A stretch of 64,000 nt of DNA from Planctomycetota bacterium (lineage in GTDB: Bacteria > Planctomycetota > UBA8742 > UBA2392): contig JABTUE010000003.1 of NCBI GenBank assembly GCA_015075515.1, positions 620,001-684,000 on the forward strand, given 5' to 3'. Under the pieces are notes generated by a model. That model saw nothing but the letters and a program-made list of their open reading frames with translations. It had not been told where the DNA came from and did no database searches. This document shows, piece after piece, positions 50,519 through 60,998 of the stretch. The first letter of the stretch is position 1, and every line of letters starts with the position of its first letter. Made by a program: the position numbers and the translations under genes.

Positions 50519-51136
50519 CTATTCTTCGGGCTGGTACACCTGCGGGCGTTTGTACGGGGCGGCGCCGATCACTTCCACGGCCGCGCCCTTCTTTTCAAAA
50601 CCCGCTATCTCAAGGTTCCACCGGCCGTTCTCGCGCCGGGGGCCGTTGTAAACCAGTCGCGGCGACTTGCCGTCCTTCAGTTGCGCGGACTTGTCGCCAA
50701 ACTCGAACTCGCCCAGCAGGCGAAACGCGGTCAGGCCCATGCCGCCCTCTTTCACGGCGGTGAACACTTCATGCGGCTCCACGACGCGGGGCAGCTTCCA
50801 TTCAAACCACAGCGCCCTGTCGTCCATGCTTGTCTGAACCTGCGCGCCGAACCGGCGCTGGAGTACAACCCGTACTCCGTCTACTCACTCTCATCACACT
50901 CAGCCCGCGACCAGCAGGTACACAATCGGCGGGCCCTGCAGCGCCACCGGAGGCAGGTCTTCCTTTTTGGGCGGGGTTTCGGTGGCCTTGACCTCGGTGG
51001 GGTGACCGTCGCCTCGTCTTCTTGCCAGGCCATGGCGCGGCGTCGCTCGGCGCTGTCAAAGCCCGCCCCGATGTGGCAGGGCCGCAACGGCCAGGGCCGT
51101 GCATCCAAACAACAGGGCTGTCAACGCGCGTTTCAT
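50519..51136 (-). CDS. Small secreted protein of unknown function, multiply frameshifted
   Basis: The C-terminal 102 residues (50827-50519, starting MDDRALWFEWKLPRV) are one open frame. Upstream, sequence in changing frames continues as GVRVVLQRRFGAQVQTS, LPPVALQGPPIVYLLVAG and EATVTPTEVKATETPPKKED, back to a signal peptide at 51136 (MKRALTALLFGCTALAVAA). At least three indels are needed to join them. The product would be an exported protein of about 200 residues rich in Pro and charged residues. No family is recognised. An ATG at 50827 could also be a genuine shorter gene. Confidence 0.45.
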
Positions 51137-56107: not shown

Positions 56108-57901
56108 TCAATGGTTGGTGGCGAACTCGGTAGTGCTGATCAGGGCGAAAAACAGGTCTTCGTAGCCCTGGGCCGGCGCGGGCGCGGCCTTGACGGCCGC
56201 CAGCGCGCGTTCCAGTTCGCGCGCGTCAGGGCGGCGTGAAAGCACACTGAGGTACAGGGCCTCGACGCGGCGGGAGTCTTCGGAAAAATCGCGCATGACG
56301 GCAAACACCAGCGAGCCATTGAGCGACCCGCCCAGCCTGCGCGTGACCTCGCCGTTGAGGATCATCAGGGCCTGGTCCATGCTGCCGGTGAAGCCTTCGG
56401 TCTGGGCGCGTTCGTCGTCGCTGGAAAGCTGGGCGTACCGGGCGGCCAGACCGCGGCGGATCTGCCACAGCGGGCCCATCTGTTCCAGGCGCTGTTCGTA
56501 AACGCGCAGCAGTTCGTGGTTGAACTTCGGGTCGTATTCGCCGGGCGGGATGCCCTGTTTTTTCTGCTGTTCCTGCAACGCGGCAAAGCCGCCCAGTTTC
56601 TGGTAGGCGTTCTGGGTCTGGCGCGCAAAGGCGCGCACAAAACCGTCGCCGTCCACCAGCGTGAACAGCGCGCCGAAGAACTGCTCGGGCGTAAGCGGCC
56701 GCGGCCACCAGGCGGCAAAGTGCCAGTGCTGGGCTTTGGGGTCGGCGCCGCGGCCGGAAAGCTGCCAGGCGCGGGTGTTCAGAATCGCGCGGTACAGGCG
56801 CTTGACGCGAAAGCCGCCGGCCACCCAGTCAGCAGCCAGGTCATCCAGCAACTGGGGGTGTGTGGGCGTGTTCAGGCTGTTGAAGTCGTCCACCGGGTGC
56901 ACCAGCCCGCGCCCGAACAGAAACGACCAGAAGCGGTTCACCTGGTACTTCATGGCCGTGGTGTTTGATGGGCTGGTCAGCCACGCGGCCATCATGCGCC
57001 GCCAGCTTGCCGCGTCGCGGGTCTTGACGGGCCTGTCGCCGGGCAGGCGCGGCTGGTCGTAGGCCAGCAGGTCGTTGATGCGGTTGACGGTTTCGGGCTC
57101 GATCGCCGGCTGTTTGAGCAAAGCCTGCAACACCGCGCGCGGCGGCAGATCGCGCGTGACCACGGCCGGATCCACGGGCTGGGTGTAGAAATCGGCCGTG
57201 ATCTCAATGCTGGAAAAGAACCCCGCCACGCCGGCAAAGGCCTGCTGTGTCCAGGCCGGTTCATAGTGATGGTCGTGGCACTGCGCGCACTGGATCTGCA
57301 TGCCGGCAAAGTTGCGCAGTGTCAGACCGGCCATGTCGGCCACCGGGGGCGGAAAACCCATCAGGGCGTAGTAGGCACTGGGCGGATTGCGGCTGATCGG
57401 GCCCTGGGCGGTGACAATGTCGGTGATTGTCTGGTTGAAGGGGGTATCAGCGTTGAAGCGCCCGGCCAGCCACACCGCCATCACGTCGCCGGCGGAAACG
57501 CCAAGCTCGCCCAGGTCATTGCCGCGCTCGCGCAGGATCGGCATCCACAGATCGGCCAGATGCCGGCCGAAACGCTCGTCGGCCAGCAGGCGGTCAATCA
57601 GCGCCGCGCGCTTGCCCGGCGCGGTGTCGGCCAGAAAGGCCTCGGCCTCGGGGCGTGTGGGCGGAACCCCCACCGTGGAAAGATACACACGCCGCAGAAA
57701 CTCGGCGTCGGTGGCGGGGGCGGCGGGCTTGATGCCGTCGCGCTGCCACACGGCTTCGATCCCGGCGTCTATGCGCGCGCTCAGGGCCGCGGTGTCGGCG
57801 GGGCCGGGCCCGGCGGCGGCCGGATCGGCGGCCAGGCCAAGCCACAGGCAGACCGCACAGGCGGCGGGCAACAGCGCGCGGAACAGGCCACGGGGCGTCA
57901 T
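56108..57901 (-). CDS. DUF1549/DUF1553 cytochrome-like secreted protein
   Basis: A 597-residue protein from the ATG at 57901. A signal peptide (about 1-28) is followed by the DUF1549 (PSCyt2) domain, with EFLRRVYLSTVGVPPTRPEA and the single CxxCH haem motif CAQCHDHHYEP. The C-terminal DUF1553 (PSD1) domain has NRFWSFLFGRGLVHPVDDFN, NTPTHPQLLDDLAADWV and the final LSRRPDARELERAL. The pair is abundant in planctomycetes, usually next to a DUF1501 gene in polysaccharide or sulfatase loci. No DUF1501 gene is adjacent here. A role in haem-linked oxidation of complex substrates is inferred, not shown. Confidence 0.9.
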   Translation of the reverse strand: MTPRGLFRALLPAACAVCLWLGLAADPAAAGPGPADTAALSARIDAGIEAVWQRDGIKPAAPATDAEFLRRVYLSTVGVPPTRPEAEAFLADTAPGKRAALIDRLLADERFGRHLADLWMPILRERGNDLGELGVSAGDVMAVWLAGRFNADTPFNQTITDIVTAQGPISRNPPSAYYALMGFPPPVADMAGLTLRNFAGMQIQCAQCHDHHYEPAWTQQAFAGVAGFFSSIEITADFYTQPVDPAVVTRDLPPRAVLQALLKQPAIEPETVNRINDLLAYDQPRLPGDRPVKTRDAASWRRMMAAWLTSPSNTTAMKYQVNRFWSFLFGRGLVHPVDDFNSLNTPTHPQLLDDLAADWVAGGFRVKRLYRAILNTRAWQLSGRGADPKAQHWHFAAWWPRPLTPEQFFGALFTLVDGDGFVRAFARQTQNAYQKLGGFAALQEQQKKQGIPPGEYDPKFNHELLRVYEQRLEQMGPLWQIRRGLAARYAQLSSDDERAQTEGFTGSMDQALMILNGEVTRRLGGSLNGSLVFAVMRDFSEDSRRVEALYLSVLSRRPDARELERALAAVKAAPAPAQGYEDLFFALISTTEFATNH

Positions 57902-57976
57902 CGGGCACTCATTGTAGAAGCCGCCCCATGCTTGCGAAAACAAAGGCCGGAATTCCAGCCCGACGCGCCGCCCGGT

Positions 57977-59233
57977 TTACCAGGGCCTGGCCTTGAGCTT
58001 GAAGCTGAGCTCAAACGTCTTGCCGCCGCGCAGCACCTTGACCTTGACGGTGTCGCCGGCATTGCGGTTCAGGCGTATCCACAGCACCGGGTTGCAGGTG
58101 TAGGGGCACTTCGTCACGTCGTCCACGGCGCAGACCACGTCGCCGACCTGAAGCCCCGCAGCCTGGGCGTTGGTGCGAACCCAGAACTTGGTGACCTCGC
58201 AGGCGAAATCTTCTTTCTTGAGGCCGAGCTTGCGCTTGGCGTCTTCGTCGAGTTCCTTGCCCCAGAACTCGGGAAAGGGCTCCAGCGCGTGGGTTCCGCC
58301 CCGGCGCTCGATTTTGGTGACGCGCCAGTATTCGGGCAGCTTGAGTGTCACGGTTTCTTCGGCGTCGCCCCGCCGCACGACAAGCTCAAGCGTTCTGGCG
58401 TCGTGGGGCACCAGGTGCAGCCGCTGTTGCAGATCGCCGTAGGTCAGCACCGGCTTGCCCGCCAGCCTGACGATTTCGTCTTTGGCCTTCAGGCCGGCCT
58501 CTTTGGCGGCCTTTTCGACTTTTTTGATCACCGTGCCTTTTTCAGGGTCAAGGGTAATGCCCAGCGCCAAGACCTCGGGGTAGACCCACAGGTCCACCTG
58601 CTTGTCCAGTTTGCCCGCGGCCTGGGCGAGTTTGGTCTTTGCCGAACCGATGTTGTGGCAATGCACGCATTTGTCTTTGTCAATGATGTCGCGCTTGATG
58701 TCGGGGTAGTCGGCCGGCGTTTTTGCCGGGGCGCGGGGTTCGGGCTCAAGCTTGCCCTCTTTGGCCAGGCGGTACTGTGCCAGGCCGCGTTCCAGCGCGA
58801 GCTGCAGCGACTTTTCGTTGAAGTAGGTCTCGGCCGATTCGTCGTCACGCCCGCCATAGCGCAGCAGAATCTGTTCGTCGGCGTTGATTACAAACGTGTA
58901 CAGCGTGCTGTCGGGGTCAAAATCAAAGTGCCCGACATCCACCCCGCGCAGGTCGGTGACACGGGCCAGCACATACTGCCTGTACAGCTTGCTGATCGCG
59001 GCGTTCTTTGGATCCACCAGACCGGCGTAGAACGCGCGGCAGGGTACTCACGGCACGCAGCGGAAGACCAGAAAGACCGGCTTGTCCTGTTCGCGCGCGG
59101 CGGCCAGCGCGGCCTTGTAGTCGTCGTGCCACAGCGGCGGCTCGGCCCGGGCCATGTCGGTTCGGGCGGCGGCCAGGGCCACCGCGGCGGCAAGGAACAG
59201 CAGCAGCGGCAGGACAACACGGCGCGGTTGCAT
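57977..59233 (-). CDS. Thioredoxin-like/PDZ secreted protein with in-frame UGA, probable selenoprotein
   Basis: 418 residues if UGA is read through. A signal peptide (about 1-23) precedes a thioredoxin-like domain: PVFLVFRCVP, then codon 62 is TGA (59050-59048), then VPCRAFYAGLVDPKNAAI in the same frame. This gives U-V-P-C, a selenocysteine version of CxxC. A CxxCH motif (KDKCVHCHNIG) follows near residue 170. At least two PDZ-like segments follow (AGLKAKDEIVRLAGKPVLTY; AGLQVGDVVCAVDDV). A SECIS-like hairpin begins 9 nt after UGA. From memory, databases hold a family named Trx7/PDZ domain-containing (seleno)protein; I could not check. Without read-through, the ATG-less remainder would start at 59017. 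Confidence 0.8.
58997..59038 (-). promoter_or_regulatory. Candidate bacterial SECIS element
   Basis: On the mRNA this begins 9 nt after the UGA. The lower stem CGCGCGUUCU (59038-59029) pairs with AGAACGCCGCG (59007-58997, one bulged C). An upper stem CGCC/GGUG (59027-59024 with 59018-59015, one G-U) presents the apical loop GGUCU (59023-59019), 24 nt after UGA. GGUCU is also the loop sequence of the E. coli fdhF SECIS, where SelB contacts it at 18 nt. Confidence 0.65.
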
Positions 59234-59336
59234 GGCGCACTCCAGTCAGGGTCTACCAACAGAAATGACGCGGGCAGGCGGCAATGGGTCAGAAAACCGG
59301 GCCGCGCCGGCCGGCGCGGTGGTAAGGTGCACGGGC

Positions 59337-60998
59337 ATGAAGATTTCGCTCAAGCCCCAGCACCTGAAGCGTTACCGGCAGATTGCCTCGATGCTGCTGC
59401 GTTACGGCCTGGCCGAAGTCATGCGCGGCAGCGGGCTGGAAGACCTGCTGGGCGACGAGCTGGGGCGGCTGACACAAAAGGCCCACCCCAAGCCGGCGGA
59501 ACTGGCGGCCGAACTGGAGGAAATGGGCCCCACGTTCGTGAAGTTCGGCCAGGTGCTGTCCACGCGCGGCGACCTGGTGCCGCTGGAATATCTGGCGGCG
59601 CTGCAGACACTGCAGGACCGGGTGGGCCCCGTGCCGTACAGCGAAATCGAGCAGGTGATCGTGGAGGAGTTCGGCCAGGGCGTGGCGCAACTGTTCAATA
59701 CCTTTGAGCCCGCGCCGCTGGCCGCGGCGTCGCTGGGCCAGGTGCATGTGGCGACGCTGGCCGACGGCCGCAAACTGGCGGTGAAGGTGCAACGGCCGGG
59801 CATTCGCGCGAAACTGGCGGAAGACCTGGACGTGCTGGAAGAAATCGCGTCGGTGCTGGAAAGCGTCACCGGGTTTGCCGCGCGCTATCGTTTTCGCTCG
59901 ATTGTGGCGGACTTCCGCCGCACGCTGATGCGCGAACTGGATTACCGCACCGAGGCCGAAAACCTGCGCGCACTGGCGGCCAACCTGGCCGACTTTGATT
60001 CGATTGTCGTGCCCCGGCCGGTGGACGAGCTGACCACCTCGCGCGTGCTGGCGATGGATTTTGTGGCGGGCAAGAAAGTCACGGCCATCAACGATGAAGA
60101 CCGCAAGGCCGCGGACGGCAACAGACTGGCCAACGAGCTGCAAAAGGCGTGGATGAAGCAGGTGTGCATTGACGGTTTCTTTCACGCCGACCCGCACCCC
60201 GGCAACGTGATGCTGTGCCCCGACGGCCGGATCGGGCTGATTGACCTGGGCATGGTGGGACGGCTGAGCCCCGAAATGCGCGAGCGGCTGCTGCGGCTGC
60301 TGATCGCGCTGGGCGAGGGCCGGCCCGAAACGGCGGCGGACCTGGCGGTGAAGGTCGGACACCCCGGGCCTGATTTTGACGAAACACGCTTCCGCGGCAC
60401 GGTCAAAACGCTGGTCACGGCCAACGCCGGCGCGCCGGTGGCGCAGATCCAGCTTGGGCGCGTGATCATGGACCTGGCCCGCGCCAGCGCCGACTGCGGC
60501 CTGCACCCGCCGGGCGAACTGACCATGCTGGGCAAGGCTTTGCTGAGCCTGGACGAACTGGGCCGCGCGCTGGCGCCGGGGTTTGACCCCTACGAAAGCA
60601 TCCGGCGCGACGCGATTCCGCTGGTGCTGCAGATGCTGCGCCAAGGCGCCAACACCACCAGCCTGCTGGGCCGGATGCTGGAGGTCAACGAATTCGGGCG
60701 CGAGCTGCCTTCGCGCGTGAACAAGATTCTGGACCGCGTGGCCGACAACCGTCTGGAAGTGCGCGTGCGCAGCTTTGACGAACGCGAGCTGATCCAGGGG
60801 CTTCAGAAAGTGGCCAACCGCATCACCCAGGGTCTGCTGATCGCGGCGCTGGTGGTGGGCGCGGCGCTGCTGACCAACGTGCGCGGCGGGTTCACGATCG
60901 CGGGTTACCCGGCGCTGGCGGTGCTGCTGTTCGTGCTGGCGGTCGGCGGCGCGCTGGCACTGTTCTGGGATATCTGGCGCCACGACCGCAAACGCTGA
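59337..60998 (+). CDS. UbiB/ABC1 (ADCK)-family atypical kinase
   Basis: A 553-residue protein from the ATG at 59337. The family-specific KxGQ motif is FVKFGQVLS (Lys69-Gln72), followed by the Ala-rich loop LAAASLGQVH, the VKVQRPG block, and the catalytic FFHADPHPGNVML and IGLIDLGMVGR. Two C-terminal membrane helices (LLIAALVVGAALLTNV; about 525-545) anchor it. UbiB-type proteins support quinone-lipid biosynthesis or lipid handling with ATPase activity. No ubi or men genes adjoin it. Its promoter lies in the about 100 bp shared with the divergent selenoprotein gene. Confidence 0.93.
   Translation: MKISLKPQHLKRYRQIASMLLRYGLAEVMRGSGLEDLLGDELGRLTQKAHPKPAELAAELEEMGPTFVKFGQVLSTRGDLVPLEYLAALQTLQDRVGPVPYSEIEQVIVEEFGQGVAQLFNTFEPAPLAAASLGQVHVATLADGRKLAVKVQRPGIRAKLAEDLDVLEEIASVLESVTGFAARYRFRSIVADFRRTLMRELDYRTEAENLRALAANLADFDSIVVPRPVDELTTSRVLAMDFVAGKKVTAINDEDRKAADGNRLANELQKAWMKQVCIDGFFHADPHPGNVMLCPDGRIGLIDLGMVGRLSPEMRERLLRLLIALGEGRPETAADLAVKVGHPGPDFDETRFRGTVKTLVTANAGAPVAQIQLGRVIMDLARASADCGLHPPGELTMLGKALLSLDELGRALAPGFDPYESIRRDAIPLVLQMLRQGANTTSLLGRMLEVNEFGRELPSRVNKILDRVADNRLEVRVRSFDERELIQGLQKVANRITQGLLIAALVVGAALLTNVRGGFTIAGYPALAVLLFVLAVGGALALFWDIWRHDRKR

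Follow-up and report, generated by a model that had tools for sequence, protein, structure and literature searches.

A UGA-interrupted Trx7/PDZ gene of Planctomycetota as a probable selenoprotein gene, and tandem hairpins in its two-selenocysteine relatives

In a 64,000-nucleotide stretch of a Planctomycetota genome (assembly GCA_015075515.1, contig JABTUE010000003.1, positions 620,001 to 684,000; hereafter the window), a gene on the minus strand appears truncated by an in-frame TGA at 59050-59048. Comparison with its homologues indicates that this gene very probably encodes a selenoprotein of a known family, NF041199, with selenocysteine (Sec, U) at residue 62. At that level of confidence the truncated-looking gene is confirmed as a selenoprotein gene, and Sec is placed at the thioredoxin nucleophile. 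The window gene itself belongs to a catalogued family; the new part lies in relatives that carry two UGA codons and a hairpin matched to each UGA. This tandem-hairpin, two-Sec form is the part worth following, and it bears on what fixes the distance between a UGA and its selenocysteine insertion sequence (SECIS).

The interrupted gene and its active site

With the TGA read as Sec, a single open reading frame (ORF) of 418 residues (MQPRR...KARPW) runs on the minus strand from the ATG at 59233 to the TAA at 57977-57979, with U62 in the context FRCVP-U-VPCR. An earlier reading of the window, made from its letters alone (the sequence-only reading), had described two halves separated only by this codon. 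The TGA occupies the same position in every close relative, and the two halves are parts of a single conserved family. A database search with U62, as that reading had proposed, identified NCBIfam NF041199 (trx7_PDZ_seleno, "Trx7/PDZ domain-containing (seleno)protein") at 429.7 bits, the curated cut-off being 300 bits, over model positions 3-390 of 390. The window protein also has the Sec or Cys expected by NF041199 at the active site (U62, with Cys59 and Cys65). Matches to the window protein were found in 191 of 392 genomes of the phylum, the weaker ones including matches to the PDZ part only. The nearest relatives are Planctomycetota metagenome genomes, and a class-level genome search added few further genomes. 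For residue counts 93 members were aligned; motif and hairpin counts were taken from 90 relatives with non-identical hairpin regions.

Two reviews list the family as a CxxU protein with one Sec and give a 2008 Global Ocean Sampling survey as its source (PMC9312934, PMC13188914); in the original survey (Zhang and Gladyshev 2008, PMC2398784) it was apparently named "secreted serine protease MucD". The catalogued family has the same domains and the same Sec site as the window protein. Thus, the Trx-CxxCH-PDZ arrangement, which the sequence-only reading had taken for the unusual part, is a known kind of selenoprotein. In contrast to the single Sec and CxxU of the reviews, U62 is placed here on the first Cys of a CxxC, and 48 of the 90 relatives have two UGAs and a second hairpin.

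Across the 90 relatives the motif is [C/U]59-xx-[U/C]62-xx-C65. The combination C59/U62 occurs in 24 and C59/C62 in 18, while 48 are U59/U62 with the two UGAs 9 nt apart; no relative is U59/C62. The two-UGA (UxxUxxC) members include L023, L028-L034, L037, L039-L044, L046-L049 and others. Positions 59 and 62 are Cys or Sec without exception in the 93 aligned members, so that homologues with neither residue at 62, which according to the sequence-only reading would speak against Sec, did not appear. The absolute conservation of position 59 indicates that Cys59 or Sec59 is also part of the mechanism, a partner which that reading had overlooked. Position 65 is Cys in 87 of the 93 members. In the other six (L058, L059, L076, L094, L105 and L108) it is replaced by Ser, Gly or Ala while Cys/Sec59 and Sec62 are retained, leaving 59-62 as the sole pair at the site.

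To which cysteine Sec62 is paired was judged from solved structures. The thioredoxin-like disulfide isomerases 3fk8 and 3f9u share a Thioredoxin_7-like domain with the window protein, but lack Sec, PDZ domains and the upstream Cys59. Aligned with both structures without gaps, the window protein has U62 at the first Cys of CxxC and C65 at the other. Hence, the UxxC label given by the sequence-only reading is structurally right and fits better than CxxU. An AlphaFold model starts helix 2 at residue 63, with U62 at its start; this model is shallow (four sequences, mean predicted local distance difference test score 66.5) and its confidence is low exactly at residues 61-64. Alternatively, the redox pair could be Cys59-xx-Sec62 with Cys65 secondary. 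This possibility, which concerns the mechanism and not the identity of the UGA, has an appreciable though less than even probability: the invariance of 59 and 62 next to the six replacements at 65 favors it, as does the label used in the reviews (PMC9312934, PMC13188914), whereas the alignment with the solved thioredoxins sets U62 and C65 on the CxxC.

We infer Sec insertion, export, haem and substrates of the window protein as follows. A ribosome at UGA62 would be served by SelB carrying Sec-tRNA, bound to a hairpin whose loop lies ~25 nt downstream, and Sec would thereby become the nucleophile of the thioredoxin active site (Cys59-x-x-Sec62-x-x-Cys65). Redox chemistry would be carried out by Sec62, with Cys65 and/or Cys59 as the resolving residue, and electrons may arrive via haem c at the CxxCH site. 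Since a signal peptide is probable, the protein is predicted to be exported, and its PDZ domains, both DegQ/RseP-like according to Foldseek, may bind exported protein partners. Together, the hydrophobic N-terminus, the invariant CxxCH and the PDZ domains are suggestive of a redox protein that would be exported, act on partner proteins and possibly be supplied by haem c.

Evidence for selenocysteine at UGA62

The genome of the window (3.87 Mb, 92% complete) contains a tRNA-Sec gene (73 bits, anticodon tca), SelA (545 bits, less than 1 kb from the tRNA-Sec gene), SelB (316 bits, full-length ORF) and SelD (392 bits), and its Sec trait is therefore complete. All of selA, selB, selC and selD, for which the sequence-only reading had suggested looking, are thus present. 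The SelD (L016, G000:C1:1077128-1078054) is itself a UGA-containing selenoprotein with the motif GAGUGCK.

In 18 Cys-only relatives the in-frame UGA is aligned with Cys. Of 64 genomes carrying a U gene, 59 have SelA, versus 6 of 18 that carry Cys genes only (Fisher p = 9e-7, in a comparison that ignores relatedness). Two observations weigh against the Sec reading. Five genomes with a U gene (G082, G164, G212, G214 and G280) have no full SelA match; all are drafts, four of them less than 90% complete, and they are probably incomplete assemblies. In addition, only 3 U62-to-Cys contrasts are both independent and tree-supported. In the family tree, loss of Sec62 needs ~4 changes, while the Sec59/Cys59 state changes many times (16 changes for the U59/U62 group, at least 11 of them forced by supported branches); these counts carry no direction.

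The sequence-only reading had also drawn a SECIS-like hairpin downstream of the TGA. It forms as drawn, with a lower stem at nt 10-19/41-51 after the UGA, an upper stem at nt 21-24/30-33 and a GGUCU loop at nt 25-29, the energy of both stems being -16.3 kcal/mol. The same GGUCU loop occurs in the E. coli fdhF SECIS. The window hairpin lies within the limits of the bacterial SECIS (bSECIS) model for spacing (24 nt), loop G (GGUCU), stem (4 bp) and loop size (5 nt); it departs from the consensus in its weak upper stem. The model specifies a UGA-to-loop spacing of 16-37 nt, a G in the first two loop positions, an upper stem of 4-16 bp, a loop of 3-9 nt and a free energy of at most -7.5 kcal/mol (PMC13188914).

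Several results weigh against this particular hairpin. The upper hairpin alone reaches -4.6 kcal/mol or is less stable, against the limit of -7.5, and the minimum free energy fold favors another upper stem, the SECIS-like one having a probability of ~0.40. Taken by itself, the hairpin does not stand out from dinucleotide shuffles (z = -0.17) or from a synonymous-codon null (p = 0.20). Moreover, the window gene shares with its closest relative a short stem in a register about one base upstream of that in most relatives. On its own the hairpin is thus unremarkable, single-sequence evidence is insufficient to settle the question, and the case rests on the family.

In genes with U62, nt 19-37 downstream of UGA62 form a stem (hairpin 2), with a loop AGUU, AGGU or GGU and the apical loop ~25 nt downstream. 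Its mean length is 6.5-6.9 bp versus 3.1-3.3 bp in synonymous-codon nulls, while Cys-only genes show no excess in this stretch (2.7 versus 3.0 bp). A stem of at least 5 bp is present in 64 of 72 U62 genes versus 0 of 18 Cys-only genes, and 55 of 72 versus 4 of 18 fall within the bSECIS limits, the background elsewhere in the same genes being 24%. Hairpin 2 clearly passed a slid-register control (pairing 0.92 at the stated register versus 0.26-0.46).

The Sec reading of U62 is therefore supported at the level of sequence comparison by the complete machinery, the conserved TGA, Cys homologues in lineages mostly lacking SelA and the family-wide hairpin. A true stop or a decaying gene (a pseudogene, or an assembly error for TGC) would agree with the chance-level hairpin of the window gene. 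However, the TGA is shared by independent assemblies of relatives with 57-82% identity, so the consensus error considered in the sequence-only reading did not materialize; the downstream frame is intact with conserved CxxCH and PDZ; and TGA relatives are spread over the phylum and co-occur with SelA. This explanation is largely refuted, and we consider it highly improbable. Decoding of the UGA as Trp or Cys, by near-cognate reading or a code change, is just as improbable: no point speaks directly for it, although the inserted residue is not visible to sequence comparison, and the complete Sec machinery, the presence of Cys at this site in lineages that mostly have no SelA and the confinement of the hairpin to U62 genes all argue against it.

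A second hairpin in two-UGA relatives

Genes of the U59/U62 type have an additional hairpin (hairpin 1) formed by nt 1-18 downstream of UGA62, such as AAGGACU-GCA-AGUCCUU, GCUGGC-UGC-GCCAGC or GUCCU-GCA-AGGAC. Its mean energy in these genes is -5.3 kcal/mol versus -2.6 in synonymous recodings; the corresponding values are -1.5 versus -1.8 for C59/U62 genes and -1.8 versus -1.4 for Cys genes. At a threshold of -3, hairpin 1 is present in 41 of 48 U59/U62 versus 4 of 24 C59/U62 genes. As this threshold was chosen after the first set had been seen, further genes were then fetched as a held-out set, in which 16 of 18 U59/U62 genes and 1 of 8 C59/U62 genes passed (L166, one of these eight C59/U62 genes, probably has its motif misplaced). 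When 115 genes were compared in a tree-corrected regression, from which L166 and two late Cys-only genes were excluded, the two elements separated. Hairpin 1 follows U59 (-3.6 kcal/mol, p = 4e-13) and not U62 (p = 0.83), whereas hairpin 2 follows U62 (-6.5, p = 2e-7) and not U59 (p = 0.42). In a control stretch the U59 effect was absent. Hairpin 1 is also best paired at its stated register (0.70 versus 0.25-0.55 when slid).

Other results make the case for hairpin 1 weaker. Both held-out Cys-only genes passed the threshold as well (-3.4 and -3.2). Independent pairs on supported branches divide ~7 to 1 (p ~0.07), and ~6 to 1 in a larger set (p > 0.05). The registers of the hairpin vary among genes, and double-change counts do not exceed those of slid registers; hence, covariation alone is no proof of hairpin 1. 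The start of hairpin 1 directly after UGA62 places its loop 15-16 nt downstream of UGA59, which is at or slightly under the lower bSECIS limit; in contrast to the consensus, hairpin 1 has no GGU loop.

On balance, we think it likely that two-Sec members have their own tandem hairpin for each UGA and that hairpin 1 serves specifically in the decoding of UGA59, having been gained or lost with Sec59 several times. It may act as a compact second SECIS for UGA59. Alternatively, it may be a fold that brings the SelB-binding hairpin 2 to a suitable distance as long as the ribosome is on UGA59, and would melt when the ribosome reaches UGA62. That residue 59 has repeatedly switched between Cys and Sec, and that a hairpin is mostly tied to the second UGA, amounts to a natural experiment on the decoding of UGAs 9 nt apart.

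Other bacterial selenoproteins with a UxxU motif are Prx-like proteins, the metal-binding NF041115 and FmdB (PMC13188914). Like the two-Sec relatives they have two Sec three residues apart, but they belong to different families. Of these, NF041115 was taken as a further UxxU family in which to look for tandem hairpins, and it gave only sub-threshold matches. In the open-licence full-text literature we found no description of the tandem hairpin of two-UGA members.

Features and neighborhood of the window gene

Table 1. Positions in the window of the selenoprotein gene and its elements
Feature	Position	Strand	Basis
ORF of probable Trx7/PDZ selenoprotein, 418 residues with U62	57980..59233	-	Frame reading; NF041199 match
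Probable signal peptide, hydrophobic N-terminus	59140..59233	-	Sequence reading only; model helix at residues 10-22
Thioredoxin_7 domain, residues 35-91	58961..59131	-	Pfam PF13899, 1e-9
Cys59 codon (TGC)	59057..59059	-	TGA instead in 48 two-Sec relatives
In-frame TGA, probable Sec codon 62	59048..59050	-	TGA in U62 relatives, TGC/TGT in Cys-only relatives
Cys65 codon	59039..59041	-	Aligned to second Cys of thioredoxin CxxC
SECIS-like two-part hairpin (lower and upper stem)	58997..59038	-	Folding; hairpin at like spacing conserved in relatives
GGUCU apical loop, 24 nt after UGA	59019..59023	-	Folding; in relatives AGUU, AGGU or GGU at nt 26-29
CVHCH (CxxCH), residues 189-193, candidate haem c site	58655..58669	-	CxHCH invariant in 93/93 aligned relatives
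First PDZ domain, residues 224-299	58337..58564	-	Pfam PF13180, 1.8e-15; DegQ/RseP PDZ folds (Foldseek)
Second PDZ-like domain, ~residues 347-412	57998..58195	-	Pfam and NCBIfam profile matches (second stretch)

No conserved operon partner was found across the phylum among the neighbors of the selenoprotein gene. The window was scanned for coding-looking in-frame TGAs, a first scoring scheme having failed to discriminate; the scan returned only the selenoprotein gene and a multi-TGA stretch near 50887 (minus strand), whose coding-like score is probably noise. The downstream ORF at 56108-57943 (minus strand) resembles, by sequence reading, a planctomycete protein of the DUF1549/DUF1553 cytochrome type and contains CAQCH. 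On the other side lies a divergent gene at 59154-60998 (plus strand), named UbiB/AarF-like kinase by sequence reading, and a UbiB/AarF-like gene is also found near the selenoprotein gene in several genomes of the same taxonomic family.
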